NCBI GenBank assembly: GCA_033344815.1
Contig: JAWPMR010000001.1
Location: 3,644,136 to 3,708,135 of the forward strand
DNA from: Paracoccaceae bacterium
Lineage (GTDB): Bacteria; Pseudomonadota; Alphaproteobacteria; Rhodobacterales; Rhodobacteraceae
Reading direction: 5' to 3'
DNA length: 64,000 nt
Shown here: positions 5,401 to 27,610 of the stretch, piece after piece
How the letters are laid out: each line of letters starts with the position of its first letter
Numbering within the stretch: position 1 is the stretch's first letter
Program-made: the position numbers and the translations under genes
Notes under the pieces: model-generated
The model's database searches: none
The model's input: the letters and a program-made list of their open reading frames with translations, nothing else
What the model was told of the DNA's origin: nothing

Positions 5401-5873
5401 GGCTTTTGACCGCATTTGAGCAGGTGAATTCCAATTTTTCGATGCTGTTCACACATCTGTTTGGCGGCGGTGAGGCCAATCTGGTCATGGTGGAGAGCGA
5501 TGATCCACTCGAAGCCGGCCTTGAGATCATGTGTCAGCCGCCCGGCAAGAAACTGTCGACGCTGAGCCTGTTGTCCGGCGGGGAGCAGACCTTGACCGCG
5601 ATGGCGCTGATTTTTGCAGTGTTCCTCGCCAATCCTGCGCCGATCTGCGTGCTGGATGAGGTGGACGCGCCGCTGGATGATGCGAATGTAACGCGGTTCT
5701 GCGATCTCTTGGATGAAATGTGCCGCCAGACGGAAACGCGTTTTTTGATCATCACACACCATGCTGTGACCATGGCGCGGATGGATCGATTGTTTGGGGT
5801 CACAATGGCCGAGCAGGGCGTCAGCCAGTTGGTTTCGGTGGACCTGAAGAAGGCGGAAACGCTGGTGGCGTAA
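2418..5873 (+). CDS. smc: Chromosome segregation ATPase SMC
   Basis: 1151-residue SMC protein that, with ScpA/ScpB, organises and separates sister chromosomes. The N-terminal ATPase half has Walker A GPNGCGKSN at 31-39. Two long Ala/Glu/Arg-rich coiled coils flank a hinge at about 500-630. The C-terminal half has the signature LLSGGEQ at 1051-1057 and Walker B ICVLDEVDAPLDD near 1076-1088. The start is uncertain: TTG at 2418 gives the expected MRFSKLRLTGFKSF beginning, but AAGGAA lies 17 nt upstream, and an in-frame ATT at 2403 would have better spacing. scpA and scpB are not in the window. Confidence 0.95.
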   Translation: MRFSKLRLTGFKSFVDPTDLIIADGLTGVVGPNGCGKSNLLEALRWVMGENRPTAMRGGGMEDVIFAGAATRPARNFAEVALHLDNSERLAPAGFNDHDQLDIVRRITRDVGSAYKVGAKDVRARDVQMLFADASTGAHSPALVRQGQIAELINAKPKNRRRILEEAAGISGLYQRRHEAELKLKGAETNLARVDDVIEQLANQLAQLARQARQAARYREIGNDLRRAEGILLYRRWREADEARAGAEESLRARVTEAAQSETAVRQVAKQRETAEEALPAMREEEAIAAAVLQRLSVERDALDDQEARAQSLIETLSGRIAQLARDIEREGGLNRDAGETIERLEWEAQELAKAAEGHEAKLAEAAEAAREAAAILQTREGEMSQQTEDMARLSARHGSAQRLLEDSRKTQAKAEADAGQARAAVSESQAALSKAALDFSAAEREETAATQASEEAEAALLAADEARAEAQAREADARAHRSEAEGEMNALRAEAGALAKLVDRDTAEGGQVLDQLQVKTGYEKALGAALADDLRAPEVGTDGPSGWAALPAYKAHQALPAGVQPLSLFVEVPDVLQRRIGQIGLVDADAGPGLQAALQPGQRLVSAEGDLWRWDGFRAWAEDAPSAAALRLQQLNRLEELKQSLEQATQRAEGAKAAHDHLGAQLAELTRADAAAREARRGADRLVADAGRRLSRAEADRNLAEGRLESLGLAVTRHEEEAMGARTRLLEAERALEELGDLSDARAMVEAVRMAVEAARITMMSRRSGHDELRREGEARTKRSQEVTKEVSGWRHRLETAEKRSAELVERKTTAEAELEDASAAPEEIAAKRAEMSNAITVAEARKAQSSDALSVGEATLREAALAEREAERVASEAREARARAEALSDAARETVAQAAERIADESQMTPSQLLGQLDVTPDQMPGAEALETDVNRLKRQRDALGAVNLRAEEDAREVQVEYDTLTGEKVDLEEAIKTLRGGISSLNREGRERLLTAFEQVNSNFSMLFTHLFGGGEANLVMVESDDPLEAGLEIMCQPPGKKLSTLSLLSGGEQTLTAMALIFAVFLANPAPICVLDEVDAPLDDANVTRFCDLLDEMCRQTETRFLIITHHAVTMARMDRLFGVTMAEQGVSQLVSVDLKKAETLVA

Positions 5874-5879
5874 GGGAGC

Positions 5880-5904
5880 GGTGGCCTGAAAGCCCACCTT
5901 ACGG
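5880..5904 (+). repeat. Dispersed hairpin-like intergenic repeat, copy 2
   Basis: 25-bp variant of the element at 1001-1024, with one extra A in the centre and CTTACGG in place of CCTACGG at the end. It sits 7 bp after the smc stop, again directly downstream of a gene. Confidence 0.7.
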
Positions 5905-5962
5905 CGCTTGGGATCACCGGATCGTGTTCACGCGGGCCGGATTTCCTGTCTATGCTTGCGGC

Positions 5963-6331
5963 ATGATCAGATGTCTTTTGGGAACTTTTCTGTTGGCCTT
6001 GCCAGTGTCAGCGAGCGCGCAGGACTGGGCGTTGCGCGGGGATGACCGGGCTTTGAGCCATGCGGAGGTGGTGGCGCTGACCGATGGTCAAACGCTTGTG
6101 TTTTATGACGACGGCGCGTCGCAGTTTTCAGAGGGTGGCGCCTATTCTTATACCTATGCTGGCGGTGGTACGGCGTTTGGGGTCTACACAATTGGCCCGG
6201 ACGGGACGGTCTGTATCGCTTATCGTAATGGGTTTGAGCGATGTGATCGCTATGTCCAGAGTGGCGCGCGCATTGTCATGTTGACGCAAAAGGGAGAGCG
6301 GTTTCCGCTACGACCTCCTGCGGTTGAGTAA
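5963..6331 (+). CDS. Small exported protein of unknown function
   Basis: 122 residues starting at ATG 5963. Residues 1-18 form a clear signal peptide (MIRCLLGTFLLALPVSASAQ). The mature part has about 100 residues with aromatic and glycine-rich beta-like stretches (SYTYAGGGTAFGVYTIGPDG) and a Cys pair (VCIAYRNGFERCDRY), which could form a disulfide. The pattern resembles small periplasmic beta-barrel-like proteins common in Rhodobacteraceae, but I do not recognise a named family. The frame is open further upstream into the smc 3' end, yet the signal peptide fixes the start. Confidence 0.7.
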   Translation: MIRCLLGTFLLALPVSASAQDWALRGDDRALSHAEVVALTDGQTLVFYDDGASQFSEGGAYSYTYAGGGTAFGVYTIGPDGTVCIAYRNGFERCDRYVQSGARIVMLTQKGERFPLRPPAVE

Positions 6332-6365
6332 AAAAAGACCCCGCATCGCCTCGGCGCGCAGGGTC
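6330..6365 (-). terminator. Rho-independent terminator of the transglycosylase gene
   Basis: GACCC (6337-6341) pairs with GGGTC (6361-6365), extended by GC and an inner CGCC/GGCG stem. The A7 tract at 6330-6336 becomes a U tract on minus-strand RNA. It lies about 80 bp past the stop at 6444. Confidence 0.7.
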
Positions 6366-6443
6366 CAGTAATGAAAACCTGAATGTATGTTTCACCAGAG
6401 AAATTATATTTATGGCGGTAAAAAAAGGTTAACAGCTCGGGCG

Positions 6444-7607
6444 TCAGAGTCGTGACAGCAGGGTCGGTGTTGGCCATGCGTCCGCGGGCAGGCCCAAACG
6501 TTTTTGTTCGGCTTGAACCGCAGCGCGGGTGCGTGCGCCCAGGATGCCGTCGACCTTGCCCACGTTGTGGCCTCGCGCCTGCAGTTTGCGTTGCAGTTCC
6601 TTGGTTTGTGCGCCGGACAGTCCAGTATCGGGATTGCCTTGGGTGTAGGCTGGCGCGCCTTCGAGCCGCGTGGCAAAATAGGCGGCGGTCATCACATAGG
6701 TAAAGCTTTGATTCCATTCGAAATAGACGTTGAAGTTCGGATAGGCAAGGAAAGCCGGTCCCTTGTGTCCTTGCGGCAGGATCAAGGCGGCAGTGAGATT
6801 GTTTGCAAGTGATCCATGGCGCGCTTTGACGCCCATTGCCGCCCATTCCCGGACCGGTTTGACCACCTTCAATCCGCTTTGGGACCAGTCAAAATTGCTC
6901 GGGACGGCTACTTCGTGGATCCAGGGTTGCCCGGCGCGCCAACCGAGACTCTGAAGCATGGAGCCTCCCGACATCAGCGCATCGGTCGCGGAGGTTTTTA
7001 ACGAAACCTTACCATCGCCATCCCCGTCAACGCCATTTTCGATGATGTCGCGGGGCAGCATTTGCACCATGCCGATCTCGCCCGCCCATGCGCCTGTTGT
7101 GGTGCGCGGGTCAAACGCGCCGCTTTCATAGAGTTCAAGGGCGGCAAAGACTTGCGGGCGAAACAGATTTGGGCGACGGCAATCGTGGGACAGGGTCACC
7201 AGCGCATTGGCGGTATTGAAATCGCCCTGAAACCCGCCGTAATCGGTCTCAAACGCCCAGAAAGCCAGCAGCACCCCCCGGCTTACCCCATATCGCCGTT
7301 CGATCTGATCAAAAACGGCGTCGTATTTCTTGGCGTTGCTTTGGCCCCGTTTCACCCGGTCAGCGGAGATCAGGCGCTGCGAGAAATCCAGAAAAGGGCG
7401 TTGAAAGACGCCCTGGGCGCGGTCGGCTTTGATGACGCTGGGGTCTTGTCGGACGCTGGCGAAAAACTGATCCACATTTGTGCGATTGTGGCCCTTGGAG
7501 ACAGCTTCCGCTTTGAGACCGTTGACGAAGTCGGAGAAAGATCCGCCGCAGGCGTTGGCCGCAAAGGGTAGGGTGGCCAGACAAAGGGCCAGCAGGGACA
7601 GTCGCAT
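6444..7607 (-). CDS. Lytic murein transglycosylase (MltB type) with peptidoglycan-binding domain
   Basis: 387-residue periplasmic enzyme that cleaves the MurNAc-GlcNAc bond and leaves 1,6-anhydro ends. Signal peptide at 1-19, cut before CGG. The SLT-2/MltB catalytic domain spans about 25-320, with catalytic Glu120 in AFWAFETDYG and the family motif GAWAGEIGMVQMLP. A C-terminal peptidoglycan-binding domain covers about 325-387 (LQRKLQARGHNVGKVDG). The start was set at 7607 because GGAGGTTTTTTG precedes that ATG and it exposes the signal peptide; an upstream in-frame ATG adds ten unlikely residues. It is 22 bp downstream of cobD and may be co-transcribed with it. Confidence 0.9.
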   Translation of the reverse strand: MRLSLLALCLATLPFAANACGGSFSDFVNGLKAEAVSKGHNRTNVDQFFASVRQDPSVIKADRAQGVFQRPFLDFSQRLISADRVKRGQSNAKKYDAVFDQIERRYGVSRGVLLAFWAFETDYGGFQGDFNTANALVTLSHDCRRPNLFRPQVFAALELYESGAFDPRTTTGAWAGEIGMVQMLPRDIIENGVDGDGDGKVSLKTSATDALMSGGSMLQSLGWRAGQPWIHEVAVPSNFDWSQSGLKVVKPVREWAAMGVKARHGSLANNLTAALILPQGHKGPAFLAYPNFNVYFEWNQSFTYVMTAAYFATRLEGAPAYTQGNPDTGLSGAQTKELQRKLQARGHNVGKVDGILGARTRAAVQAEQKRLGLPADAWPTPTLLSRL

Positions 7608-7629: not shown

Positions 7630-8535
7630 TCACACAAACATGACTAACACGCAGAGAGTTAAAAACCCGGCCCACGCGCGCCACAGCATCGCGATACTGG
7701 CGTCGATGTCCACAGGTGTCAAAACGCGCCGTCCGTCCGCGTTCACCCAAGGGAAGTCGCGCATTTGCCCCTCATAGGCGCGTGGGCCCGACAGCGAGAT
7801 GCCAAGGGCGCGCGACATCGCGGCTTCGGGCCAGCCGGCGTTGGGGGACCGGTGCAAAGCTGCATCCGCGCGGATGCCACCCACATCATAGCACCGCGCG
7901 GGCAGGGCGATCAGCACGGCGGTCAGGCGGGCGGGGATGAGGTTCAGCAGATCATCCAGACGCGCGGCGGCCCAGCCGAAGTCTTTATGACGCGGGGTGC
8001 GGTACCCGATCATGCTGTCTGCGGTGTTGATGAGTTTATAGATTATCAGCCCCGGCAGACCCGCCACCAGAAACCAGAGGGCGGGGGCGATCACCCCGTC
8101 GGAAAGGTTTTCTGCGCCGCTTTCGATGGCGGAGCGGGCAATTTGCGTTTCGTCCATGGCGTTGGTGTCGCGACTGACGATGCGTGCGACCCCGCGGCGG
8201 CCTTCCTGAACGGACATGCGCAACCCGTCGCCCACAAGGCGCACATGATCCACGAGAGAGCGCTGCGCCAGGAGGATCGCCGTGACGAGGATTTCAACTA
8301 ACGGGCCGAAAGCTTGCAACAGGAACCCCGTAAGACCCCCGACACAGATCAGAACGACAACGCAGGCGATGCCTTTCGCCCTGCGCCCTGCGCCCTGATT
8401 AAAGCGCGCGTCCAGACGCCCGATGAGTTTGCCCATCAGGACAGCGGGATGGGGAAAGCGATCCCATAACCACTTGGGCTCCCCCAATGCGGCGTCCAGC
8501 AGCATTGCAACAATGAGCACCACTGCGTTGCTCAT
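7630..8535 (-). CDS. cobD: Adenosylcobinamide-phosphate synthase
   Basis: 301-residue inner-membrane protein of the CobD/CbiB family that joins aminopropanol (or its phosphate) to adenosylcobyric acid in cobalamin biosynthesis. Several transmembrane segments are visible (for example near 1-15, 55-90 and the C-terminus). Conserved stretches include [20 protein letters not shown] near the start and the [20 protein letters not shown] loop. The ATG overlaps the cobC stop as ATGA, so the two are translationally coupled and act at consecutive steps. Confidence 0.93.
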
Positions 8536-9488
8536 GCCAGGGCGGCTTTGAGCCGGGGCCAGTGCAGGGTATGGGGCAGGCCAAGGCGCAGCCAGCCGGG
8601 CGCATAAGGAAAAGTGCGGCTCCAGATATGGTGATGCGCCAGTCTGGTTTGCCAGGCTTCGGCATCATCTACGTCATAGAGGCGAAAGAGTGTGGTGCCG
8701 CCAAGCACCCTGGCCCCGGCGATCTGCATCAGCGCATCCAGTTGTGCGGCGTCCTCTGAAAGGCGTTGCCGTGTCGCCGTTGCCCAGCGGAGATCACGCA
8801 ACGCCTGGGCGCCGATGTGCAGGGCCGGTCCGGACACCGCCCAGGGGCCCAATCTGTCGCCCAGCTCTTGGATGAGCGTTGCATCGCCGATAAGAAATCC
8901 CAGCCGCAGACCGGCCAAGCCCCAGAATTTGCCAAAGCTTTTGAGAATTACGGTGCCCGGCCTGTCCGCCAAAGCAATCAGGGACAGGGCGGGGTCCACA
9001 TCGCAGAAGCTTTCATCAATGATCGTGAGGGTGGCATCCTTGCAGGGCAGGGTATCGCGCGTCCACAACCGCCCGTCTGGATTATTGGGGTGCACGATCA
9101 CCTGCGCCTTGGCGGTATCGGCATCGGTGATCGACCATCCTTGCGCCGCAAAGGCCGCTGCATGTTCATTATAAGTAGGGGCGGGAATGCAGACAGGGCC
9201 TTTTGAGACCAGCTGGGGGAGCTGCGCAATCAGGGCGGAGGCCCCGGAGGCGGCGATCACACCCGCCTCGTCGGGGATGTTCCAGAACGCGCGTGCGGCC
9301 GCCATCAGGTCGGACATCGCCTTTTTATCGGGCAAAGCGATCCATGCGTCCGGCGGCAGAGGCGCGCGCGGGTAGGGATGCGGGTTTATCCCGGTGGAAA
9401 GATCAATCCAGGTGAGTCGCGTTCCGCCAAACCGGGCAATGGCTGCATCCAACCCGCCCCCGTGGTCCCGTTGCTTTGCGTTAAACAA
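8532..9488 (-). CDS. cobC: L-threonine-O-3-phosphate decarboxylase
   Basis: 318-residue fold-type I PLP enzyme that makes aminopropanol phosphate for the cobalamin side arm. The beginning [16 protein letters not shown] and the [13 protein letters not shown] motif are characteristic of CobC. The PLP lysine is in [19 protein letters not shown]. The start is TTG at 9488 with weak GAGAG upstream; no ATG exists nearby, and the TTG matches the expected N-terminus. It overlaps cobD by 4 bp. No cobalamin riboswitch is seen in the 190-bp upstream gap. Confidence 0.9.
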
Positions 9489-9602
9489 TCTTTGCTCTCA
9501 TTCCCCATTGTGGCGCAAAACCGCGCTTTTCCCCCGCGCACAAAGCGAAAAACTGCCGGTTGTTCAAGTCTGTTATCAAATGATAAAGATGTCGTAGGAA
9601 CC

Positions 9603-9617
9603 TTAATCGTTTGTTAA
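9603..9617 (+). promoter_or_regulatory. CtrA-type box
   Basis: Perfect TTAA-N7-TTAA (TTAATCGTTTGTTAA), the full CtrA recognition sequence of Alphaproteobacteria, centred about 70 bp before the receiver gene at 9679. It lies between divergent genes (cobC on the minus strand), but its position best suits the plus-strand gene. Confidence 0.6.
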
Positions 9618-9678
9618 TCTTTAGAGCACACCACAGAGGTGCGGTGCAAAATTCAACTAGTGCTAGAATGGAGGGCAG

Positions 9679-10068
9679 ATGAAGGTTCTAATCGTAGAGA
9701 GCCAAAAAGATCTGGCTATTATTTGGCAGAGGCATCTGGAGCGTATGGGCATGAGTGTCCAGCGCGCGTCAGGTCAATCAGACGCAATCGCGCATCTTCG
9801 TGAGCATCACACGGATGTTATCATTATGGATCTGGTGTTGGGGGACGGATCGGCGTTGGCCGTGGCGGATTACGCCAGCTACCGCCTGCCCAACGCACAG
9901 GTTATATTTGTAACTAATACGTCGTTCTTTTCGGACGGGTCGATTTTCCGACATGCCACAAATGCCTGTGCATTTGTGCAGAGCGCAACACCGCCTGAAG
10001 ATCTGGCGGCAATGGTCGAGCATTACGGTGCGGACTCCAGCGACGCAGAGGTAGCGCAAACCTACTGA
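9679..10068 (+). CDS. Stand-alone receiver-domain protein with atypical active site
   Basis: 129 residues that fold like a single CheY-type receiver with no output domain. Asp51 in VIIMDLVLGDGSAL is at the phosphoacceptor position, and VIFVTNTSFF supplies the beta-4 Thr region. The usual acidic pair after beta-1 is only Glu7-Ser8 (VLIVESQKD), and the conserved Lys-Pro of beta-5 is replaced (AFVQSATPPEDL), so classic Mg-dependent phosphorylation is doubtful. GAGGGC lies before the ATG. The CtrA box upstream suggests a cell-cycle, motility or quorum-linked role; the partner is unknown. Confidence 0.75.
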   Translation: MKVLIVESQKDLAIIWQRHLERMGMSVQRASGQSDAIAHLREHHTDVIIMDLVLGDGSALAVADYASYRLPNAQVIFVTNTSFFSDGSIFRHATNACAFVQSATPPEDLAAMVEHYGADSSDAEVAQTY

Positions 10069-15654: not shown

Positions 15655-18600
15655 CTATTGCGCCGGTGTGCTGGCCAGAATCGCGTCCTCATCCGGTTTC
15701 GGGGCGCGCACGCAGAGACGCAACAAGGGTGGCACCGTCAGAAGTGTCAGGAAGGCAGACATCGACAGACCACCAACAACCACGGCGCCCAAACCACGAT
15801 AAAGCTCCGAACCCTCGCCCGGAAAGACCACCAGCGGCAGCATGCCAAAAACACTGGTCAGCGTGGACATGAAGATCGGCCGGATCCGGTTGCGGGTGGC
15901 CTCCTCGATGGCATCGACCGGCGCCATGCCTTCATCGCGCAGATGATAGAGCGTCTGGTGCACGATCAGAATTGCGTTGTTCACCACGATGCCGACAAGG
16001 ATGATGAAACCGAGCAAGGTCAGCATGTCCAGTGGCTGGGATTGAAACGTGTTCAGCAACGCCAGACCGCCCACACCCCCAGCGGCGGCAACCGGCACGG
16101 AAATCAGGATCACCAGCGGCAGAATGAAGCTCTCAAACAGGATCGCCATCACCAGAAACACGATCACCAGCGCCACGGCGAGGTTGATCTGAATAGCATC
16201 CCAGGTCTGGCTCAGCTGATCGGCGGTGCCGGACACGCTGACGCGAATGCCATTTGGCAGGCCGCGTTCTTCCAGCACACTGACGACCTCGGATTCCAGC
16301 AGTTCAACAGCTGTTTCCAATGGCAATGCATCGGAGGGGCGTACTTCCAGCGTGACAGTCCGCAATCGATCGCGGTGCCGGATTTCTGTAGGCCCGGCGG
16401 TGACGATGACATCCGACAGGGCCGTGACGGGTACGATCTGCCCGCCCGGCGTCACGACCGGATAGTTGCCGATGTCCTGCGTGCGCTGCGCGGTTTGCAG
16501 GCCCGGATCCCCCTTGAGCATCAGATTGAGCCGTTCGGCACCTACGGTAATCTCGGCAACGCGCAACCCGTCATTAAAGGCATCCACCGTCAGAGCTAGA
16601 TCGGAGGCGGTCAACCCTGCATCCGCCAACCGCAGCCGATTGGGCACCAGCCGCACCTCTGGCGCGCCCAGTTCAAGTCCGGGAATGGGGCGGAACTGAT
16701 GGCCTTCCGAGCGTGGCAAAAGACCGGCAATAATGCCCGCGGCCTGACCCGCGACAGACAGGATTTCATCCAGATCCTGGCCAGAAATATTCAGCTCGAT
16801 TGTGCGCCCACCGCCGACACCGCGTCCAAAAAGCGAAGGCTGCGTCATGAACCCGAAAGTGCCCGGTTCTGCGAATATCGGCCCCGACAGCACGGGGATC
16901 AGATCACCTGCCCGCGTCCCATCCACAGCGGCGGCGCCAACAAAACTTGCCCCCGGACGCGCCACGAAAAAGAAGTTGGCGATTGTCGGTGTGCCGTCAT
17001 CCATGGCCGGTTCCGGGGCGGCTTCCCAAAGCGGGCGGGCGACACGTTCGATGCGCTCCGCAATGGTTTGTGTAGTGACCAGATTATAGCCGGGCGGCGG
17101 TATGATCAGGCCAAAGACGAGGTTCCGATTGCCTTCGGGCAGGTATTCAAGGCGCGGTAGGAAGGCGATGGCAGCAACGCCTGCGCCCCCGGCGATCATT
17201 GCCACCATCATCACGCCCACGGCCCGGAACCGCACGGTCAGGCGCACATAAGACATCACCAGCGCATGAAAACCGCGCGCCAGGTGATCCAACCCCCAGA
17301 TCTTCATGGTGACCTGTTCGCCTTGTTTCAAAAGACGGCTGGCAAGGGCGGGAATGACTGTGATCGCCACCACAAGCGATAGCAAAACAGAGACTGAAAT
17401 GGCCACCGCGATGTCTCGAAACAGCTGTCCGGCCTCAAGTTGCATGATCAGGATTGGCACGAACACCAGAACCGTCGTCAGCGCGGAGACAAGGATCGCG
17501 CCCCAGACCTGTTTTGCACCGAGATAGGCCGCCTCGCGCCGGGTTTTGCCCTGTTCGCGCAGTCGATAAATGTTTTCCAGCACCACAATCGCCGCGTCGA
17601 CGATCATGCCGACGGCGAATGCAATTCCTGCCAGTGAAATCACATTGAGGGTCCGACCGGTGGCCGCCATGGCCACGAATGTCGCCACAATGCTGACCGG
17701 AATGGCCAGCGATACCACAAGCGTTGCCCGCGGGCTGCGCAGGAACATCAACAGGATCAGCGCGGCCAATCCCCCGCCGATCCAGATGTTTTGCGTCACC
17801 AGTTTGATCGCGCCGTTGATGTAGATGGTCTCGTCGTACACCTGCCGCATGATCAGGCCCGCGTCTGTGACAGGCCCGCCGTCAAGTTCGCTCAGAACGC
17901 TCTGAACCTCTTCCATGGTTTCAATCACATTGGCGCCGGGTTCACGCACAATATTGAAGGCCAGCCCCGGCTCGCCACGAAACCGCAGGCGCGCAGTTGG
18001 GTCTTGAAAGGCAAAGCCGACCTCTGCCACATCGCCCACCCGGACGCGACCAGACCCGCCCGCACTGAGTTCTGAGCGCAGCACGACTTCCTGAATGGCC
18101 GCCACCGTGTTGAGATTGCCTTCGGCGCGCACCACATAGCGCCGCTTGCCTTCTTCCACATCGCCGGCGGAGAGCGATATGTTTTCATTGCGCAGTGTCC
18201 GAACCACATCCGGTACGGTCAGGCCAAAGCGGGCCAATTGCCTCGGGTCCACCACGACTTGCAATTCGCGCGTGACCCCGCCGAATATGTTGACCGCAGA
18301 AACGCCCTCGACCCGTTCGATGCGGTCCTTGATGATATCCTCGACGAAATCACCATAGCTCGGCATGTCACGCGTATTGCCCTCCTGCGCTGTCAGCAGG
18401 ACCCAGGCAATCGGGCTGTCATCCCCGCCGGAGGTATTAAGCGAAGGTTCACCCGCCTCATCCGGATAATCTCCGACACGGTCCAGCCGGTTGGACACCA
18501 ACAAGAGCGATTGGCCCATGTCGGTACCGATCCCGAATTCCAGCGTGATTTCCGCCTCGCCGGACTGCGAGCGCGAGGTCATGACATCGAGCCCCTCCAG

Positions 18601-18819
18601 CCCGCGCAGAGCTTCTTCCTGCGGGTTGACGATTTCGCGTTCGATCTCGGACGGGGCGGCGCCGGGCCAATTTGTGGTGATCACAACAATTGGTTTGCGC
18701 ACGTCAGGCGCCAGTTGAATGGGGATGCGAGTCACGGCAATGACGCCAAAAAGAACGGCCATGATAACTGCGGCCATCACAGCAACCGGACGGTCAATTG
18801 CAAATCGAATGAAGTCCAT
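15655..18819 (-). CDS. RND-family efflux transporter, inner-membrane permease
   Basis: 1054-residue proton-driven pump of the AcrB/HAE1 type. The N-terminus MDFIRFAIDRPVAVMAAVIM is the first transmembrane helix; large periplasmic loops follow helices 1 and 7, and the twelve-helix layout is evident. In helix 4 GMIVDAAIVVLENIYR keeps one of the two Asp residues seen in AcrB (VDD becomes VDA), a variant also found in other RND groups. It starts 9 bp after the adaptor gene stop, so the two form one operon. No outer-membrane factor gene is adjacent. The substrate is unknown. Confidence 0.92.
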   Translation of the reverse strand: MDFIRFAIDRPVAVMAAVIMAVLFGVIAVTRIPIQLAPDVRKPIVVITTNWPGAAPSEIEREIVNPQEEALRGLEGLDVMTSRSQSGEAEITLEFGIGTDMGQSLLLVSNRLDRVGDYPDEAGEPSLNTSGGDDSPIAWVLLTAQEGNTRDMPSYGDFVEDIIKDRIERVEGVSAVNIFGGVTRELQVVVDPRQLARFGLTVPDVVRTLRNENISLSAGDVEEGKRRYVVRAEGNLNTVAAIQEVVLRSELSAGGSGRVRVGDVAEVGFAFQDPTARLRFRGEPGLAFNIVREPGANVIETMEEVQSVLSELDGGPVTDAGLIMRQVYDETIYINGAIKLVTQNIWIGGGLAALILLMFLRSPRATLVVSLAIPVSIVATFVAMAATGRTLNVISLAGIAFAVGMIVDAAIVVLENIYRLREQGKTRREAAYLGAKQVWGAILVSALTTVLVFVPILIMQLEAGQLFRDIAVAISVSVLLSLVVAITVIPALASRLLKQGEQVTMKIWGLDHLARGFHALVMSYVRLTVRFRAVGVMMVAMIAGGAGVAAIAFLPRLEYLPEGNRNLVFGLIIPPPGYNLVTTQTIAERIERVARPLWEAAPEPAMDDGTPTIANFFFVARPGASFVGAAAVDGTRAGDLIPVLSGPIFAEPGTFGFMTQPSLFGRGVGGGRTIELNISGQDLDEILSVAGQAAGIIAGLLPRSEGHQFRPIPGLELGAPEVRLVPNRLRLADAGLTASDLALTVDAFNDGLRVAEITVGAERLNLMLKGDPGLQTAQRTQDIGNYPVVTPGGQIVPVTALSDVIVTAGPTEIRHRDRLRTVTLEVRPSDALPLETAVELLESEVVSVLEERGLPNGIRVSVSGTADQLSQTWDAIQINLAVALVIVFLVMAILFESFILPLVILISVPVAAAGGVGGLALLNTFQSQPLDMLTLLGFIILVGIVVNNAILIVHQTLYHLRDEGMAPVDAIEEATRNRIRPIFMSTLTSVFGMLPLVVFPGEGSELYRGLGAVVVGGLSMSAFLTLLTVPPLLRLCVRAPKPDEDAILASTPAQ

Positions 18820-18828
18820 TATGTCCCC

Positions 18829-19950
18829 CTAATTGCTTGCGCCCATGGGCGCAATTTCCTGTCCGGGCCGCAGCCGTTCGTTGCCGCGCGTCACCACGGT
18901 GTCGCCTTCGCTGAGACCATTCAGAACTTCAAACCGGTCGCCAAGAGCCACGCCGATCTGAAGGGTGCGCGGTTGCGCGGCACCCTCTTCGGCGACAAAA
19001 ACCATCCACCCTCCACGCGCCTGCACCAGCGCATCCTTGGGGACCGAAAGCACTTCGCGCGGGGCACTGATCGGAATGGAAACAGTGATTGATTGCCCGA
19101 TCGCGATGGTTTTCAGATTGACCAGATCAGGCGATGAAAACCGCACCGGCCGCGTCCGCGTTGAGGCATCCTCCACCGGCAAAAGCACGCGTACTGTCAG
19201 GTCCAGTGCTTCGCCCACCTCGGTGATGCCGGAAACTTCCAGCCCGGGTTTGAGAACGCGGATGTATTTGGAGGGGACACTGGCCTCGATTTCAAAGGAT
19301 TGTGTGTCCAGCAGGGACACCACCGGCGCACCGGAACTGATGAATTCACCGGGGTTGGTGTTCACTTCCAACACGATGCCCGAAAACGGGGCACGGATCA
19401 GCGCGCGTTCCAGTTGATACCGGGTTTCCGCCTCATTCGCCTCTGCGGTCTTTACCCGTGCGTCGGCTTCGGCCAGTTCGCCTCGCGCTTCAAAGAAGTC
19501 GCTTTGCGCTTCGTCGAACCGGCTGGTCGAAAAGGAGGTGGTGCCGCGCAGCCCTTCGACACGTGCCAAGGCTTTGGTGGAGCGATCCACACGGGATTTG
19601 GCAGTGGTGATGCCCGCGCGGGCCTCCGCCAGAAGCGCCTCGGCCTGGCGCGCCAGAATATTCAAAAGCTCCGTATCCAACTCGGCCAGAACCTCACCCT
19701 GCATGACGCTCACGCCTTCAAGGACATGTACCTTATCCACTGTGCCGGCGATGCGGCTGGCAACAGTGCCTTCACGTGACGTGACCACCTCGGCAAACAG
19801 CGGCACGGTTTCGGCGATGGTCTGAAACTCAACGGTCTCGACACCCACCGCGGCAGGGCCACGCTGCGCCATCAATGCAGACGCCGTGCAGATGGTAATC
19901 AACGACAACACAAGCGCATAGGCCGATCGCAGAACAGGAAAATTACTCAT
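18829..19950 (-). CDS. RND efflux periplasmic adaptor (membrane fusion protein)
   Basis: 373-residue HlyD/AcrA-type subunit. An N-terminal hydrophobic signal/anchor (about 9-28) is followed by a barrel-sandwich hybrid split around a helical hairpin at about 95-170 (Ala/Glu-rich, LLAEARAGITTAKSRVD). A beta-barrel and a membrane-proximal domain follow, with typical phrases such as LIRAPFSGIVLEVNTNPGEF and VPKDALVQ. There is no lipobox cysteine. It is the first gene of the two-gene efflux operon with the permease. Confidence 0.9.
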   Translation of the reverse strand: MSNFPVLRSAYALVLSLITICTASALMAQRGPAAVGVETVEFQTIAETVPLFAEVVTSREGTVASRIAGTVDKVHVLEGVSVMQGEVLAELDTELLNILARQAEALLAEARAGITTAKSRVDRSTKALARVEGLRGTTSFSTSRFDEAQSDFFEARGELAEADARVKTAEANEAETRYQLERALIRAPFSGIVLEVNTNPGEFISSGAPVVSLLDTQSFEIEASVPSKYIRVLKPGLEVSGITEVGEALDLTVRVLLPVEDASTRTRPVRFSSPDLVNLKTIAIGQSITVSIPISAPREVLSVPKDALVQARGGWMVFVAEEGAAQPRTLQIGVALGDRFEVLNGLSEGDTVVTRGNERLRPGQEIAPMGASN

Positions 19951-20831: not shown

Positions 20832-22832
20832 CTATTCTCGTTGCCAGTCTCTCTGCGTCATGCCCACAAAGCCAAGGGCATCAGGGTTGGCGATGTTGCG
20901 CGCCACCAGATCGCGCATTGACCCGCAGGCCGCAATCTGCCCCCAGCCATAGCGTGAAAACGTCGGATGATCCGCATCCGGGTCTGTTGGCGGCTTGAAC
21001 ACATGCTCCGACAGCAATGGATTGGTCAAGGCCTGAGAAAACGCATCCAGTGCCACAAAGGACAGGATCATGCTGGGCAGAGGCGCGTTTTTCACCCGGT
21101 CTTCACAGAAGAGTCCGACAAAGAAATCCACCTTTTCCACGTCACCATATGCTTCCTGCAACAGGCTCGAGACCTCCGGGTCAGAACTGATATCAGACAT
21201 CGTCTCGATGGGCAGGCGCTCCATATATTCCAGATAATCGGTAAAAGGTCGTATCTGGCAAAATCGCCCCTGAGCAACCGAGGCCGCTTCCACGTTGAGC
21301 AGGGATTTGGTCGTATTGCGCGGACCCAGTTCACCCGCCTTCTGCGCACTCATATCTTCAAACGCCTGCGCCAACCCAGTCTGGATCAAGGGTAGGTTGT
21401 TCATGAAATAGGATTGACCGGTCTGGTGGGTCGTGTCCCCCCATGTGATTTCATCCGGGATCAGCGCGTGCCAGCGGTAAAGCAGACTGAATTCCGTGGT
21501 GATCCAGTTGGGCCGGTTCCATTTGGCCTTCCAGGCCGCTTTTGGGTCCGCCTTGATGCGAAACTCACTGGGCGCGATATGATTGATGTAATCCTCCACC
21601 ACGACCTTGATGAACTGCACCACAACAATGTTGCGGGCGGTTTCAAAAACGCGGTCGTCGTCCCAGTCGGGGTTCAATTGACCCAATTCGCGGGCCAATC
21701 TGTTGTGTTCGCGCAGCAACAGCGTGTTGATCATCGCCGTCTGCGGCACCGAATTGGCGCGATCCCCGCCAAATGCAAAGAGCCTTGCGCGCTTCTCGCG
21801 CACAGGCTCTGCCACTTCCGGGGGCCCTTCGGCGATGGCTTTATTGAGGTTTTCCAGGCCAAGCGGTTCATCCAGATCCGCAAATTCGGGCTTGATGTCG
21901 TCCCCCTCAAACAGGAACGGCGCGAATTCTTCGCCATTTTCAATCTGGCTTTTCAGCTTGCCCCGTTCCTTGTGCCCGGGGTTTTGCACCCGCAAGGCTT
22001 GGGTCTGCTCAAGCGTGCGCCCATAAAGCGGGCACAGGTCGATGTTGTGGTTTGATGTGTTCTTTTTCAGCCGATCGGGATCCGTTTCATCGGTTTTTGT
22101 GCGGATGAACCCATCTGTCAGGTATTGTGCAAAAGACGGGAAAAGGCAGGTCGATTTGGGACACATGCGTTGTGAGGCATCTGTGCGTGCAAACAAGGGG
22201 CGCAGCTTTTCAAAGGGTGGCAGGGCGGTCTGATCCAGCGGCGAAACCCCCAGATGACGCGCGCTCCATGTCTTGTCTGTCAGGCTCGCCCATGAGGTAT
22301 AAGATGATTTGGTCGAAAAGACATGGGGCCGATTGCGCACCTGATTGACGATGCGATTGATCACGATGCGGTTGATCAAAGCATCCAGCGGCGGGATCAT
22401 GCCAATGGCGCGCACGATCCACGGCACATTGAGCAATCCCATCGCTTTGTCGCCAATGGCACCAAGGATCTTGCGACGCATCAATTCCACCGGGCGAGAG
22501 GTTTTCAAATAGGGGTAATGCGACCAGAACACGGCAGAAAAGATGATGTGCAACAAGGTGTTGCGCAGCCAGGCGTCCTTGATCCAGAAGATGAACAGCG
22601 CGGCGGCAAGAACGTTCATCGCCGTCAGGATCCAGAATCCGTGTTTCCAGCCGCGCGCCATGGTGACAATGCCAAAGATGCCAACGAAATGGACCACGCC
22701 AAGGAGCCTCAGGACACCCTCACCGGGGCGGTCGCTAAGGTAAATATATCCGCGATAGGCCATGATAAGGCCCACAATCAAACAGGTTGCAAAAAATACA
22801 GTATTGCGCGAAAGCGCGCTGTTCTGTGCCAT
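20832..22832 (-). CDS. Cyclooxygenase-like haem peroxidase with N-terminal membrane domain
   Basis: 666 residues. Residues 1-110 hold three or four hydrophobic segments (about 11-31, 43-59, 66-84, 92-105). From about 180 the sequence follows animal prostaglandin H synthase. LLREHNRLARELGQLNPDWDDDRVFETAR and IKVVVEDYINHI align with its substrate channel. FSLLYRWHAL places Tyr452 and His455 at the catalytic Tyr and proximal haem His. LTNPLLSEHVF near the end also fits. At the distal site FAQYLTDGF has Asp240 where the animal enzyme has the distal His. It could be a fatty-acid dioxygenase with little peroxidase activity; the substrate is unknown. Monocistronic. Confidence 0.82.
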   Translation of the reverse strand: MAQNSALSRNTVFFATCLIVGLIMAYRGYIYLSDRPGEGVLRLLGVVHFVGIFGIVTMARGWKHGFWILTAMNVLAAALFIFWIKDAWLRNTLLHIIFSAVFWSHYPYLKTSRPVELMRRKILGAIGDKAMGLLNVPWIVRAIGMIPPLDALINRIVINRIVNQVRNRPHVFSTKSSYTSWASLTDKTWSARHLGVSPLDQTALPPFEKLRPLFARTDASQRMCPKSTCLFPSFAQYLTDGFIRTKTDETDPDRLKKNTSNHNIDLCPLYGRTLEQTQALRVQNPGHKERGKLKSQIENGEEFAPFLFEGDDIKPEFADLDEPLGLENLNKAIAEGPPEVAEPVREKRARLFAFGGDRANSVPQTAMINTLLLREHNRLARELGQLNPDWDDDRVFETARNIVVVQFIKVVVEDYINHIAPSEFRIKADPKAAWKAKWNRPNWITTEFSLLYRWHALIPDEITWGDTTHQTGQSYFMNNLPLIQTGLAQAFEDMSAQKAGELGPRNTTKSLLNVEAASVAQGRFCQIRPFTDYLEYMERLPIETMSDISSDPEVSSLLQEAYGDVEKVDFFVGLFCEDRVKNAPLPSMILSFVALDAFSQALTNPLLSEHVFKPPTDPDADHPTFSRYGWGQIAACGSMRDLVARNIANPDALGFVGMTQRDWQRE

Positions 22833-23076: not shown

Positions 23077-23820
23077 TCAGGGCAGGCGCGGATCATCCAA
23101 CGCGTGCGCAAACCGGCGTGGTGACAAGGCGGATTGAAACCATGTCACCAGCGAATAGATGGAATAGACAGGCAGGCCGGTGGCCACACGAATATCACGG
23201 GCATAGGGCACCATATTTGTGCATTCCAGCACAATGGCCCCAAGATCATCATGGGCCTCCACCAAGGCCTTTGCGGCATCCAGCATGTCCAGACGGCAGG
23301 CATCAAAGTCCACCTCAGACCGGTCCGACAGGAACGCATCATGAAACGCACGCCCGCCTTCGGTGCCCATCACGGGCGTATCCTCTGGCGCGCCTGCAGC
23401 GTTCAGGTGATCAGCTGTGAGGCTGTCTTTTGAAATGGTCAGAACACCGACGCGTTTGCCGGCTGGCAGCGTCTGGGCAATCATCGGCACCTGCATCAGC
23501 GAAGAGGCCGCCACAGGAACGCCCAGTGCTGTCTTCAGATCGTCCTGAAGGACCGATAAAAACCCGCAATTGGTGACGATGCCATCACAACCCATCCGCA
23601 CCAGGGCCCGCGCCTCGTCAATAAAGGCATCACGCATTTGGCGCGCATCCTGACGTACAATCCGGTCCGGTGTTGCGCCCTCCACGATGCGATAATGCAC
23701 CGGAAACGGCCAGGTCGTGGCATTTCCAATGTCACCGGGGATGCGCGGAAAGCGCGTTTCCAGCATCAAAATGCCCACCGTCGCGCCGTAAACAGTCTTG
23801 CCGCCCGCCTGAACGCCCAT
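23077..23820 (-). CDS. Asp/Glu racemase superfamily protein
   Basis: 247 residues. The two catalytic cysteines of this superfamily are visible in the expected places: IVTNCGFLSVL and IVLECTNMVPYA. Related activities include aspartate/glutamate, hydantoin and maleate racemases/isomerases. Starts MGVQAGGKTVYGATVGILML. It is divergent from the FAD amino-acid oxidoreductase gene 243 bp away, so the pair may interconvert and oxidise an amino acid stereoisomer, but this is inference from position. Substrate not determined. Confidence 0.8.
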   Translation of the reverse strand: MGVQAGGKTVYGATVGILMLETRFPRIPGDIGNATTWPFPVHYRIVEGATPDRIVRQDARQMRDAFIDEARALVRMGCDGIVTNCGFLSVLQDDLKTALGVPVAASSLMQVPMIAQTLPAGKRVGVLTISKDSLTADHLNAAGAPEDTPVMGTEGGRAFHDAFLSDRSEVDFDACRLDMLDAAKALVEAHDDLGAIVLECTNMVPYARDIRVATGLPVYSIYSLVTWFQSALSPRRFAHALDDPRLP

Positions 23821-24063
23821 GTGGCACCTTTCAAATCCCTATGTGTCCCAAGCATCGCAAATCCCCACAAATGTCCAGTCCTGACATTGCGCGCACTCTG
23901 CTCCGCGGGGCGCAGGGCATGAAAGAGGCGACACCGCGCGCAGACGGCACAGGCGTCCAAACATAATGTTGCGCGCCGTTACGCCATGCAAAACCGATTG
24001 ACGAACCCTCGTGGAACGGCATTCTGCACGTTCCATGTAAAATTCGGCCCTGTAGGACAAACC

Positions 24064-25308
24064 GTGACGCAAAAAATCATCATCATCGGGGCCGGTATTG
24101 TGGGCGTGTCCACGGGCATTTGGCTTCGACGCTATGGCGCGGACGTTACGATATTGGATCGCGGTGCACCCGGACAGGGGACGTCATATGGGAACGCGGG
24201 CGTGCTGGCGGCTTGTTCTATGGTGCCTGTGACAACGCCCGGATTGATGCGCAAAGCGCCGGGAATGTTGCTCAACCGGGATTTTCCACTGTTCCTGCGG
24301 GCCTCCTATTTGCCCAAACTGGCGCCGTGGTTGATGAAATACCTGCGCCATGCAAATGACGCCGATACGCGGCGCATCGCGACAGGTTTGACGCCAGTCG
24401 TGGCGGACACGGTCGAGCAGCACAAAGCCCTGACCCAAGGCACAGGAACCGAGCATTGGGTCAGCGACAGCGATTATCATTTTGCTTATCCCACCCGCGC
24501 CGGTTTTGATGCTGACAGCTATGTCTGGTCCTTGCGGCGACTGGCAGGGTTCATCCCGCAAGTGCAGGAAGGCCGCGCCGTGCAGGACCGCGAACCCAAC
24601 CTCTCGGAGGCCATCGGCTGTTTGGTAACGGTCAAGGATCACGGGTTTATCCGCGACCCCGGAGGCTATGTCGCGGCCTTGGCAGAGGTGTTTACTGAGA
24701 TGGGCGGGGACATCCGCCAGAGCGAAGTGGTTGATTTTGACCTTTCCGGTGGGCGCATCACATCGGTGATGACCAAGGATGGCACGTTGCCTTGTGACGC
24801 GGCCGTTTTGGCAACAGGGGTGTGGTCCAAACCCCTGATGCAAAAACTGGGTATTTCCGTCCCGCTGGAAAGCGAGCGCGGTTATCATATTGTTTTTGAG
24901 GGTGCGGAAAACGGCCCACTTGCCCCGACCATGCTCGCAAGCGGGAAATTTGTCGCCACGCCAATGGCCGCAGGGGTGCGTTGCGCGGGGATCGTCGAAT
25001 TTGGCGGCTTGGAGGCGGGGCCTTCCAAAGCCCCGTTTGAGTTGCTGCGCCGTAAAGTGGCCGAGGCCTATCCCAATCTGACCCATGTGCGGCAAAACGA
25101 ATGGATGGGGCATCGCCCCGCCCCTGCTGACAGCCTGCCGCTGATTGGTGAAATCGGGCAAAGCGGCGTCATGACCGCATTTGGGCATCATCATATCGGT
25201 CTGACGGGCGGGCCTAAAACCGGACGGTTGGTGGCGGATTTGCTGACCGGGCGTGCGCCCAATCTGGACATGCAGGTCTACACGCCGAACCGATTTGCCG
25301 CGCGTTAG
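24064..25308 (+). CDS. FAD-dependent amino-acid oxidoreductase (DadA-like)
   Basis: 414-residue flavoprotein of the DAO family, like D-amino-acid dehydrogenases. The FAD-binding Rossmann motif IIIIGAGIVGVSTGIWLRRYG is at 5-25, followed by GQGTSYGNAGVL, and the C-terminal FGHHHIGLTGGPKTGRLVADL closes the FAD site. GTG at 24064 is preferred, with TAGGA just upstream and the Rossmann fold immediately after; the open frame extends 26 codons further back without support. Electrons probably go to the quinone pool. The divergent racemase-like gene suggests a D-amino-acid or proline-type substrate. Confidence 0.87.
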   Translation: MTQKIIIIGAGIVGVSTGIWLRRYGADVTILDRGAPGQGTSYGNAGVLAACSMVPVTTPGLMRKAPGMLLNRDFPLFLRASYLPKLAPWLMKYLRHANDADTRRIATGLTPVVADTVEQHKALTQGTGTEHWVSDSDYHFAYPTRAGFDADSYVWSLRRLAGFIPQVQEGRAVQDREPNLSEAIGCLVTVKDHGFIRDPGGYVAALAEVFTEMGGDIRQSEVVDFDLSGGRITSVMTKDGTLPCDAAVLATGVWSKPLMQKLGISVPLESERGYHIVFEGAENGPLAPTMLASGKFVATPMAAGVRCAGIVEFGGLEAGPSKAPFELLRRKVAEAYPNLTHVRQNEWMGHRPAPADSLPLIGEIGQSGVMTAFGHHHIGLTGGPKTGRLVADLLTGRAPNLDMQVYTPNRFAAR

Positions 25309-25519
25309 GACAGGGCTTTAACGCAGCGCGCACCAAATAAAGTCAGAAACTTCCCGTAACAGTTGATTTTACGCGCTGTTTCGCGGACGCTGTTACAACA
25401 GCTGATCGTTTTGAAGCGCCTTTGACGGGCGTGGTGTGATCCCAAGAGTGGCATCCAAAGCCACCATGATCGCCATACTTCAAGACGGGGCGCTGCAGGA
25501 CCAAACGGGAGGAAAACAT

Positions 25520-27610
25520 ATGAAATTGTGGCAATGGACCTTTTGCGCCTTGCTTGGGGCAAGTGCTGCTTCGGCGCAGTCCCTGACCGAAGATCAAATC
25601 CGCGACATCACAAGCACCATCAATACCGATGCGATCATTCAAAACGCGGATACGACACAGAACTGGCTGAACTACGGGCTGGATTACGCCGAAACGCGCC
25701 ATTCCAAGCTGACCGGGATTACCACCGAAAATGTGGGTGAACTGGGCCTTGCCTGGTCCCATAACCTGGAGTCCCGCCGGGGCGTCGAGGCAACCCCCAT
25801 CGTGCTGGATGGTGTGATGTATGTCACCGCCTCCTGGTCGGTTGTGCATGCGCTGGATGCGGTCACGGGCGAAGAGCTTTGGGTTTACGATCCCGAAGTG
25901 CCGCGTGATTACGCCTATAAGGGCTGTTGCGATGTGGTGAACCGGGGCGTGGCGATCTATGAGGGGGCCGTTTTTGTCGGCGCTTATGATGGAAACCTGC
26001 ACGCGATTGATGCGGCCACCGGCGAACGGCTTTGGAAAACCGACACCATCGAAAACCGCGAAATGTCCTATACCATCACCGGCGCGCCGCGTGTGATTGA
26101 TGGGCGTGTGATCATCGGCAATGGCGGCGCGGAATTCGGCGTGCGCGGTTACGTCAGCGCCTATGACGCCAAATCCGGCGAGATGGACTGGCGTTGGTAC
26201 GTGATCCCCGGTGATCCGGCGGACGGTTACGATGATCCCTCGATGGAGGCGGCTGCCGCCACGTGGGACCCTTCGGCGGAATACTGGAAAGCGGGCGGGG
26301 GCGGCACCATCTGGGACGCGATGGCCTATGATCCCGAGCTTGATCTGCTCTATGTGGGCACGGGCAATGGATCGCCCTGGAACCGGCATCTGCGCTCGCC
26401 AGCAGGCGGTGACAACCTTTATCTTGCCTCCATCGTGGCGCTTGATCCTGCGACAGGAGAATACAAATGGCACTATCAGAACACGCCCGGGGATACGTGG
26501 GATTACACCTCCACGCAGCATATCATTCTGGCTGATCTGGAAATTGACGGGGCCGAACGCAAAGTCCTGATGCAGGCCCCGAAAAACGGGTTTTTCTATG
26601 TGATTGACCGCACGAATGGCGAATTCATCTCCGCTGAACCCTTTGTCGAGGTGACATGGGCCACGGGATATGATGAAAATGGCCGCCCCGTTGAGGCCGA
26701 AGGGGCGCGCTCCAAAACCGACCCGTGGGAGACGATCCCCTCGGCTTACGGCGCACACAACTGGCACCCGATGAGCTTTAATCCCGAAACCGGTCTGGTC
26801 TATATCCCGGCGCAGGGCGTGCCATTGGTGCAATCGACCGATCCGGCGTGGGAGCTCAATTCGCACAAACCCATGTCCACCATGTCCGGCGTGGGCTGGA
26901 ATCTTGGATACCTCTTTAATGTGGTCGCTCCGGAGGCCACCGCTTTTGGCCATCTGCTGGCCTGGGACCCCGTCGCGCAAAAGGAAGTCTGGCGCGCTGA
27001 ATATGTCTCACCCTGGAACGGTGGGACGCTGACCACTGCCGGAAATCTGGTGTTTCAAGGCACCGCGGATGGACGTTTCATCGCCTATGATGCAGCTACG
27101 GGCGAGGTGCTTTGGCAAACGCCTGTGGGTTCTGGCGTGGTCGCGGCGCCGGCCACATGGGAAAAGGACGGCACGCAATATGTCACCATCGCGGTGGGCT
27201 GGGGGGGCGTCTATGGCATGATGCAACGCGCCACGGATAAGGTCGGACCGGGACGGGTCTATACCTTCAAACTGGGTGGGGAGGCAGCCAAGCCCGAGAC
27301 CATCACATCTGAGCGGCTGAGCCTTGTTGAGGGCGTTCCCTATGACCCCAACCATATCGCGGATGGCTTGGCGCTTTATGTGTCCAACTGCCTGTTCTGT
27401 CACGGTGTGCCGGGCGTGAACAATGGCGGCGGCGTGCCAAATCTGGGGTATTCCGATGCGTCTGTGTTGATGAATGCCAAGGACGTGGTTCTGGGCGGTG
27501 CAATGGTTGAGGGCGGCATGCCGTCATTCGCGGACAAGCTAAGCGAGGCAGATGTGGAAAAGCTGATCGCCTTTGTGCAGGGCACGGCGGATGCGGTGCG
27601 CCCACAGTAA
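25520..27610 (+). CDS. PQQ-dependent alcohol dehydrogenase, quinohaemoprotein type
   Basis: 696-residue periplasmic enzyme. Signal peptide 1-19 (ends AASAQ). An eight-bladed propeller with W-motif repeats (LDAVTGEELWVYD, IDAATGERLWKTD, YDAATGEVLWQTP) covers about 45-600. The vicinal disulfide Cys136-Cys137 (YKGCCDVV) marks PQQ alcohol dehydrogenases. A C-terminal cytochrome c domain has CLFCH at 624-628 and likely axial Met667 (EGGMPSF). This is the type II layout, in which electrons pass from PQQ to haem to a soluble carrier. GGAGGAAAACAT precedes ATG 25520. No PQQ synthesis genes are nearby. Confidence 0.93.
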   Translation: MKLWQWTFCALLGASAASAQSLTEDQIRDITSTINTDAIIQNADTTQNWLNYGLDYAETRHSKLTGITTENVGELGLAWSHNLESRRGVEATPIVLDGVMYVTASWSVVHALDAVTGEELWVYDPEVPRDYAYKGCCDVVNRGVAIYEGAVFVGAYDGNLHAIDAATGERLWKTDTIENREMSYTITGAPRVIDGRVIIGNGGAEFGVRGYVSAYDAKSGEMDWRWYVIPGDPADGYDDPSMEAAAATWDPSAEYWKAGGGGTIWDAMAYDPELDLLYVGTGNGSPWNRHLRSPAGGDNLYLASIVALDPATGEYKWHYQNTPGDTWDYTSTQHIILADLEIDGAERKVLMQAPKNGFFYVIDRTNGEFISAEPFVEVTWATGYDENGRPVEAEGARSKTDPWETIPSAYGAHNWHPMSFNPETGLVYIPAQGVPLVQSTDPAWELNSHKPMSTMSGVGWNLGYLFNVVAPEATAFGHLLAWDPVAQKEVWRAEYVSPWNGGTLTTAGNLVFQGTADGRFIAYDAATGEVLWQTPVGSGVVAAPATWEKDGTQYVTIAVGWGGVYGMMQRATDKVGPGRVYTFKLGGEAAKPETITSERLSLVEGVPYDPNHIADGLALYVSNCLFCHGVPGVNNGGGVPNLGYSDASVLMNAKDVVLGGAMVEGGMPSFADKLSEADVEKLIAFVQGTADAVRPQ

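Follow-up and report, generated by a model that had tools for sequence, protein, structure and literature searches.

The closest characterised relative of the gene described here is the linoleate 10S-dioxygenase (10S-DOX) of Nostoc punctiforme, for which the original paper is reportedly that of Brash in 2014. Animal cyclooxygenases (COX, i.e., PGHS-1 and PGHS-2), to which the human target of aspirin belongs, have an EGF domain, of which no counterpart was seen in the protein studied here, and a monotopic attachment to the membrane, from which its predicted four-helix anchor differs. The Nostoc enzyme, B2J5P4, has 542 residues, with F143-tds-F at the distal helix and the residues Y305, I306, T310 and Y342; it departs from COX at the positions of His207 and Val291, and its product is a 10S-hydroperoxide (PMC13049297). 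Its distal Asp motif is already in print, and the same source mentions a conserved Arg at the Val291 position of 10S-DOX that, according to its author, may merit investigation (PMC13049297). The Asp is not what makes a 10S-DOX, because the 10S-dioxygenase of a fungus (a mushroom) keeps the distal His (PMC9579011). Bacterial cyclooxygenases were termed putative sequences in 2015 (PMC4420034), and the roles of oxylipins in prokaryotes are described as largely unidentified (PMC5155153). In the literature searched, with partial coverage, we found no description of a membrane-anchored form of these enzymes, of its activity, or of its neighbourhood of RoxA-like and catalase-related genes.

We analysed a stretch of 64,000 nucleotides from a marine Paracoccaceae bacterium (hereafter the window), which encodes at 20832..22832, on the reverse strand like all features given below for this gene, a putative COX-like haem dioxygenase of 666 residues with an ATG start. 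We read its product as a haem dioxygenase that is anchored in the membrane, faces the cytoplasm and works by a tyrosyl-radical mechanism, and we place it in the 10S-DOX-like group of bacterial enzymes within the peroxidase-cyclooxygenase superfamily; we give this reading a probability of about 0.75. It is based on the predicted fold, the identity and conservation of residues, the predicted topology, and the gene associations found in relatives.

The only Pfam match of the protein at E<=0.001 was PF03098 (animal haem peroxidase; E 1.3e-40), a family matched once in this genome. NCBIfam gave no match at the same threshold, and the best match among virus-protein families had E 0.027. Searched on its own against the sequences of solved structures, the protein was closest to COX-2 (E 3.5e-47) and COX-1. 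A 69-row family profile placed COX-2 (E 1.7e-98) ahead of peroxinectin A (2.2e-32), alpha-dioxygenase (3.2e-27) and myeloperoxidase (about 1e-21). An AlphaFold2 model built from the 69-row alignment (mean pLDDT 91.9, pTM 0.86) gave the same first rank: COX structures led the Foldseek matches (E about 1e-31, TM-score by target 0.82), and in VIA-align COX reached a Z of 42.3 (499 residues, 2.4 A), ahead of peroxinectin A (31.6), a cyanobacterial peroxidase (31.0), alpha-dioxygenase (28.4) and myeloperoxidase (27.1). The best 50 fold matches listed are COX-type proteins, animal-type peroxidases and alpha-dioxygenase. An earlier sequence-only reading had assigned the C-terminal part to the COX type, which these results confirm; a better fit to a non-COX peroxidase group or to alpha-dioxygenase was sought and rejected, as their matches are weaker in both sequence and fold. 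The gene is intact and encodes a haem protein of predicted COX fold.

COX residue numbers used here, such as His207, follow PMC13049297 or customary COX numbering. On the proximal side, the motif YRWH (residues 452-455; 21468..21479) places the catalytic Tyr452 on COX Tyr385 and the proximal haem ligand His455 on His388, and Tyr415 (21588..21590) is the equivalent of Tyr348. The distal haem helix motif FAQYLTDGF (residues 234-242; 22107..22133) aligns without a gap to the COX motif FAQHFTHQF, with Asp240 (codon 22113-22115) replacing His207 and Tyr237 replacing the first His. Both the Tyr-x-Trp-His motif and the distal Asp had been noticed before, and both assignments hold. There is no alternative His in the predicted distal helix (230-242), and His262, considered as a distal ligand, was discarded because it aligns with the His of COX GHGVD. 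MopA-type and other long bacterial peroxicins have PF03098 in common with the window protein. Where the window protein has FAQYLTDGF, however, the motif is GQxxDHD, which includes the usual His, in 9 other, distinct PF03098 proteins from the same searches (they are the 11 of 18 examined rows with a readable motif, minus two repeats; the other 7 are family fragments, broken pieces or lack the motif). Proteins of the MopA type are of large size and contain domains that bind calcium (PMC6247904).

The earlier reading treated the distal change as a plain loss. The exchange of His for Asp stands, but Gln236 is kept, and the pocket has a further polar residue that had been overlooked, Arg358 (21759..21761). 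This residue lies over COX Val291 in the profile alignment and, in the gapless pair GGDRANSVP/GERRGNENP, over the peroxidase Arg in the R-x-N-E stretch of peroxinectin A. In animal peroxidases the Glu of the R-x-x-E signature forms an ester with the haem; Ser361 stands at its place in the window protein, and free haem b is therefore likely. This signature is described in PMC4420034, and its Arg is the one aligned with Arg358. As Arg358 occupies the position of the peroxidase Arg beside Gln236 and Asp240, the predicted distal pocket is Gln-Asp-Arg and resembles that of dye-decolorising peroxidases on another fold. This likeness, a distal Asp plus an Arg, is one of pocket chemistry only: dye-decolorising peroxidases belong to another superfamily (PMC4420034), and their family profile was not matched at E<=0.001.

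The window protein shares with COX the overall fold, YxWH, the Tyr348 equivalent and the distal Gln, and one may ask if it is a true bacterial cyclooxygenase that would form prostaglandin-type endoperoxides from algal C20 polyunsaturated acids. Besides COX being the closest solved protein in fold and sequence, this idea has in its favour that residues 113-162 (22347..22496) form helices overlaying the COX membrane-binding domain, followed by the conserved Arg166 (42 of 69 rows) and Arg168 (69 of 69) near COX Arg120, where the alignment is uncertain. The overlay begins, however, only at about residue 110 of the model, i.e., at about COX residue 71, where the COX membrane-binding domain starts, and no EGF-like part was seen ahead of it, residues 1-110 being four helices. 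The Tyr of COX LSGYHF (Tyr355) is Ser422 in the sequence alignment, His207 and Val291 are replaced by Asp and Arg, and the Nostoc enzyme, which has been characterised and shares the pocket motif, yields a 10S-hydroperoxide (PMC13049297). We thus regard a true cyclooxygenase as very unlikely. The sequence alignment also puts Ser599 at COX Ser530; in the published superposition of 10S-DOX, the Ala of DAF is found there (PMC13049297).

The likeness to 10S-DOX extends to the distal pocket: the window protein combines the COX-like fold and YxWH with Asp at His207 and Arg at Val291. The two have in common the distal Asp (within F-T-D-x-F in the Nostoc enzyme), the Arg, the radical and central Tyr, the proximal His and the COX-like membrane-binding helices. 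Two Nostoc proteins in our set (L083, L088) and two from other cyanobacterial rows (L064, L065) carry F143, D145, F147, Y305, I306, T310, F338 and Y342 at the B2J5P4 numbers; in L086 the later of the B2J5P4-type residues are shifted by one. Since the cyanobacterial rows have 545-546 residues (546 in Nostoc) against 542, have the Ile of the terminal motif at 482 (481 in L086) against 483, and, in the three of them whose Trp motif could be located, have at position 69 the Trp expected at 84 (W84), the Nostoc rows are close relatives of B2J5P4 and not proven to be the same enzyme. The window protein has Ala420 for Thr310 and Val593 for Ile483 of 10S-DOX, and the position of its product need not be C10, because it is only about 38-41% identical to the cyanobacterial rows. 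It differs from them in having a four-helix membrane domain, and Nostoc has a tandem gene for a catalase-related hydroperoxide lyase that was not found in the window's genome.

How widespread is this active site? While a scan of the named genome contigs with the single protein found no relative, an alignment scan of the named genomes gave 93, of which 80 were kept, and an alignment search of 394 genomes of the taxonomic family matched 19, several by a short conserved stretch only. The 103 loci above 400 bits were reduced to 88 distinct sequences by dropping identical or contained ones (L014 and L103 are partial). Gln236, Asp240, Tyr415, Tyr452, Trp454 and His455 are conserved in all 88, and Arg358 in 87 (L110 has His). 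The scan patterns, EDYINHI and DDRVFETA, mean that the search favoured Tyr415, and did not favour Asp240 or Arg358. The named rows belong to four phyla: Pseudomonadota (Alpha-, Beta- and Gammaproteobacteria), Cyanobacteriota, Actinomycetota and Acidobacteriota. The distal Asp is therefore no oddity of the window gene, and the novelty implied for it by the sequence-only reading is weaker than it seemed, being family-wide and printed for the Nostoc enzyme. One broken relative, L111, reads FAQHLTD.

Residues 1-110 (22503..22832) are predicted to form a membrane domain of four helices (2-33, 39-59, 64-84 and 88-103 in the AlphaFold2 model), of which a simple hydropathy scan detects three, in agreement with the three or four transmembrane segments suggested before. 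The claim that this sets the protein apart from the monotopic animal enzymes is right for the extra helices, but these occur in one sub-group only, and the part that superposes on the COX membrane-binding domain is still present behind them. The sub-group comprises Roseobacter, Mameliella, Phaeobacter, Aestuariispira and Ramlibacter. In the 69-row tree, a modestly supported branch (82/66; present in 86% of the bootstrap trees) sets its 15 anchored proteins apart, and the window protein lies beside L003 (100/98). Summed over 15 proteins, Lys and Arg number 153 on the side of the N-terminus, the loop between helices 2 and 3 and the C-terminal end, versus 8 on the other side, which predicts an N-in/C-in topology and a catalytic part facing the cytoplasm.

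Residues 1-140 had no Pfam match at E<=1, and the N-terminal part of L033 matched DUF308 at E 0.15 only. The model of the membrane domain (pLDDT 82.6) had no Foldseek match in the PDB at E<=0.001 (best E 0.98), and VIA-align gave Z values up to 10.8 with soluble helix bundles in the top rows, which is within the chance range for helical bundles; with such matches the fold is neither known nor shown to be new. A search for the domain in 385 genomes of the class gave three matches: the window's genome, a 674-residue frame of G619 (the dioxygenase of Aestuariispira type), and a third, at E 9.9e-4, which by eye is an unrelated small membrane protein and was taken for chance. The membrane domain evolves faster than the rest: the window protein and L005 share 33% identity in residues 1-110, compared with 79% in the catalytic part. 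Anchored relatives outside Roseobacter (L029-L035) have E-D-x-W-x-H-H-V-L-P-H at helix 4, whose Trp-x-His-His-x-x-x-His could be a candidate metal or haem site. The motif is lost in Roseobacter, where the window protein and L003 retain its last His.

The genes around the dioxygenase differ between relatives. A profile of genes that we call catalase-related (a name of our own) matched 29 of 81 stretches (80 loci and the window, which itself had no match), from Cyanobacteria, Geodermatophilus, an acidobacterium, Ensifer, Ruegeria haliotis and the anchored relatives outside Roseobacter; a profile of RoxA-like dihaem cytochromes matched 8 of 81. Most members match by construction, because the profiles were built from such genes; those left out of the building were L061, L084, L085 and L035 (catalase-related) and L030 and L034 (RoxA), and the over-long frame of L085 was matched by the profile built without it. 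The Pfam catalase family was matched by L029 (E 4e-6), L061 (6.5e-9) and L066 (4.3e-4, below cut-off), and not by L033 or the fragment of L035. The two RoxA-like cytochromes scanned, those of L029 and L035, have clear Pfam matches (E about 1e-16). We infer that the catalase-related genes encode hydroperoxide lyases. The RoxA group includes PA2077, the fatty-acid 10S-dioxygenase of Pseudomonas (PMC4496055). All seven anchored relatives outside Roseobacter in our set have both genes (the catalase-related copy of L035 is truncated), and neither is found in the window or in six intact Roseobacter loci (L024-L028, L036).

The same is seen at the level of genomes. Two queries found no catalase-related gene in the window's genome and did find it in the control genome G619; no match was obtained in any of the 8 Roseobacter genomes with the anchored form, where RoxA-type matches are absent or weak (E 3.6e-6 in the window's genome, 4.9e-4 in G012). 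Two of four non-anchored Roseobacter genomes (G011, G013) have a distant catalase-related gene elsewhere. The argument from partner genes thus rests on the relatives.

Several relatives also associate the dioxygenase with lipid-acting enzymes. It is fused to a Tle1-like phospholipase domain (PF09994, E 9.3e-82) in a Lyngbya protein, L073, and to a patatin (E 1.1e-17) in the acidobacterial L068, and it adjoins a PF09994 gene (Tle1-like, E 1.3e-79) in Ensifer (L061). By eye, the long N-terminal parts of L077, L078, L093 and L094 look like the Lyngbya fusion. Together with the catalase-related and RoxA-like genes, these fusions and neighbours in some relatives fit fatty-acid oxygenation. The oxygenase role proposed earlier is thus supported by the lipid enzymes of relatives and by kinship with a characterised 10S-dioxygenase. 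A protein that is mainly a peroxidase, detoxifying lipid or hydrogen peroxides with a Gln-Asp-Arg pocket that works as in dye-decolorising peroxidases, would account for the alignment of Arg358 with the Arg of peroxinectin A, and a distal Asp-Arg pair does help to cleave H2O2 in a B-class dye-decolorising peroxidase (PMC6153280). Against it, the radical Tyr and its partner Tyr415 are invariant (88 of 88, with Tyr415 biased by the search pattern), and 29 of the 81 stretches have a catalase-related gene. We consider this account unlikely.

Some other neighbours were recorded. Ramlibacter sp. WS9 (L035) has two dioxygenase genes (5319-6938 and 7848-9917), one with the membrane domain and one without, in the locus of the truncated catalase-related frame. 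Directly downstream of the dioxygenase of a Mycolicibacterium (L096, 9675-10874) lies an FA_desaturase-family gene, by eye alkane-hydroxylase-like; genes similar to it cluster in 10 loci, of which L096 alone was scanned, and the window's genome has three FA_desaturase-family matches. In the window, an RND efflux pump and its adaptor (15655-19950) share the strand of the dioxygenase gene and follow it at a distance of 0.9 kb downstream; RND genes also accompany it in further loci of Roseobacter and in Tateyamaria. On the other side, at 23077-25308 and 25436-27610, are genes for an Asp/Glu racemase-like protein and a DadA-like oxidoreductase, then a PQQ alcohol dehydrogenase with a cytochrome c domain; the racemase-like and DadA-like genes are kept near the dioxygenase in several Roseobacter. 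We draw no function from the DadA-like, racemase-like and RND neighbours, because these are common genes, though shared with some relatives. Cluster 7 of the neighbour analysis was set aside, as it looks like frames that overlap the dioxygenase gene in antisense.

Within the genus Roseobacter, 13 of 18 other species have a match: in 7 it includes the membrane domain, in 4 it lacks this domain, and in 2 it is broken (L059, from Roseobacter cerasinus, and L015/L020), and the broken copies suggest recent loss of the gene in two species. These copies, and the 8 anchored genomes with no catalase-related and at best weak RoxA-type matches, would fit a protein that had become a redox sensor or membrane regulator, its catalysis lost and its haem pocket degenerate in the Roseobacter lineage. 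Yet every active-site position compared is intact, and 13 of the 18 species keep a copy or remnant. The dN/dS of the window gene against its nearest relative is 0.095 (with dS about 1.1, near-saturated), and that of the catalytic part is 0.07-0.16 in five pairs (with saturated dS, 1.2-2.6), which indicates that the gene is under purifying selection. A regulator is to us the least probable of the readings considered.

Under the preferred reading of an anchored 10S-DOX-like dioxygenase, the haem would cleave a peroxide, with Asp240 acting as acid-base and Arg358 and Gln236 as polar partners. The ferryl haem would then oxidise Tyr452 to a radical; an unsaturated fatty acid arriving from the membrane side would lose an allylic or bis-allylic hydrogen to this radical, and addition of O2 would give a fatty-acid hydroperoxide. 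The enzyme would probably release this product without reducing it, and in many of its relatives the hydroperoxide would go to the catalase-related enzyme. The haem pocket chemistry, the substrate, the regiochemistry and the product fate are all inferred in this scheme. Roseobacter mainly make cis-vaccenate. Forming the tyrosyl radical needs some peroxide activation (PMC13049297), and the Asp-Arg pair of a B-class dye-decolorising peroxidase takes part in H2O2 cleavage (PMC6153280). Of the earlier proposal, an oxygenase without efficient peroxidase chemistry, the first half is well supported by kinship and gene context; as to the second, a pocket composed of Gln, Asp and Arg speaks for retained peroxide activation, and low reduction of the hydroperoxide product is plausible.

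A broader account, which we put forward tentatively and hold to be somewhat more doubtful than probable, joins these elements. Within the COX fold, bacteria would have replaced the distal His by an Asp that lies next to an Arg of the peroxidase type, in convergence with dye-decolorising peroxidases, so that the haem could start the tyrosyl radical and hardly reduce its own hydroperoxide, making the enzyme a hydroperoxide source. One sub-group would then have anchored this enzyme to the inner membrane. In members other than Roseobacter, the anchored enzyme would form with the products of the neighbouring RoxA-like dihaem oxygenase and catalase-related genes an oxylipin pathway of three haem enzymes, of which Roseobacter would have kept only the anchored first step.

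The family offers natural Asp-for-His enzymes in which the peroxidase activity required by a fatty-acid dioxygenase could be gauged. Many marine bacteria are associated with algae that have a high content of unsaturated fatty acids, and the anchored form, with its RoxA-like and catalase-related neighbours, points to a testable oxylipin pathway in marine bacteria.
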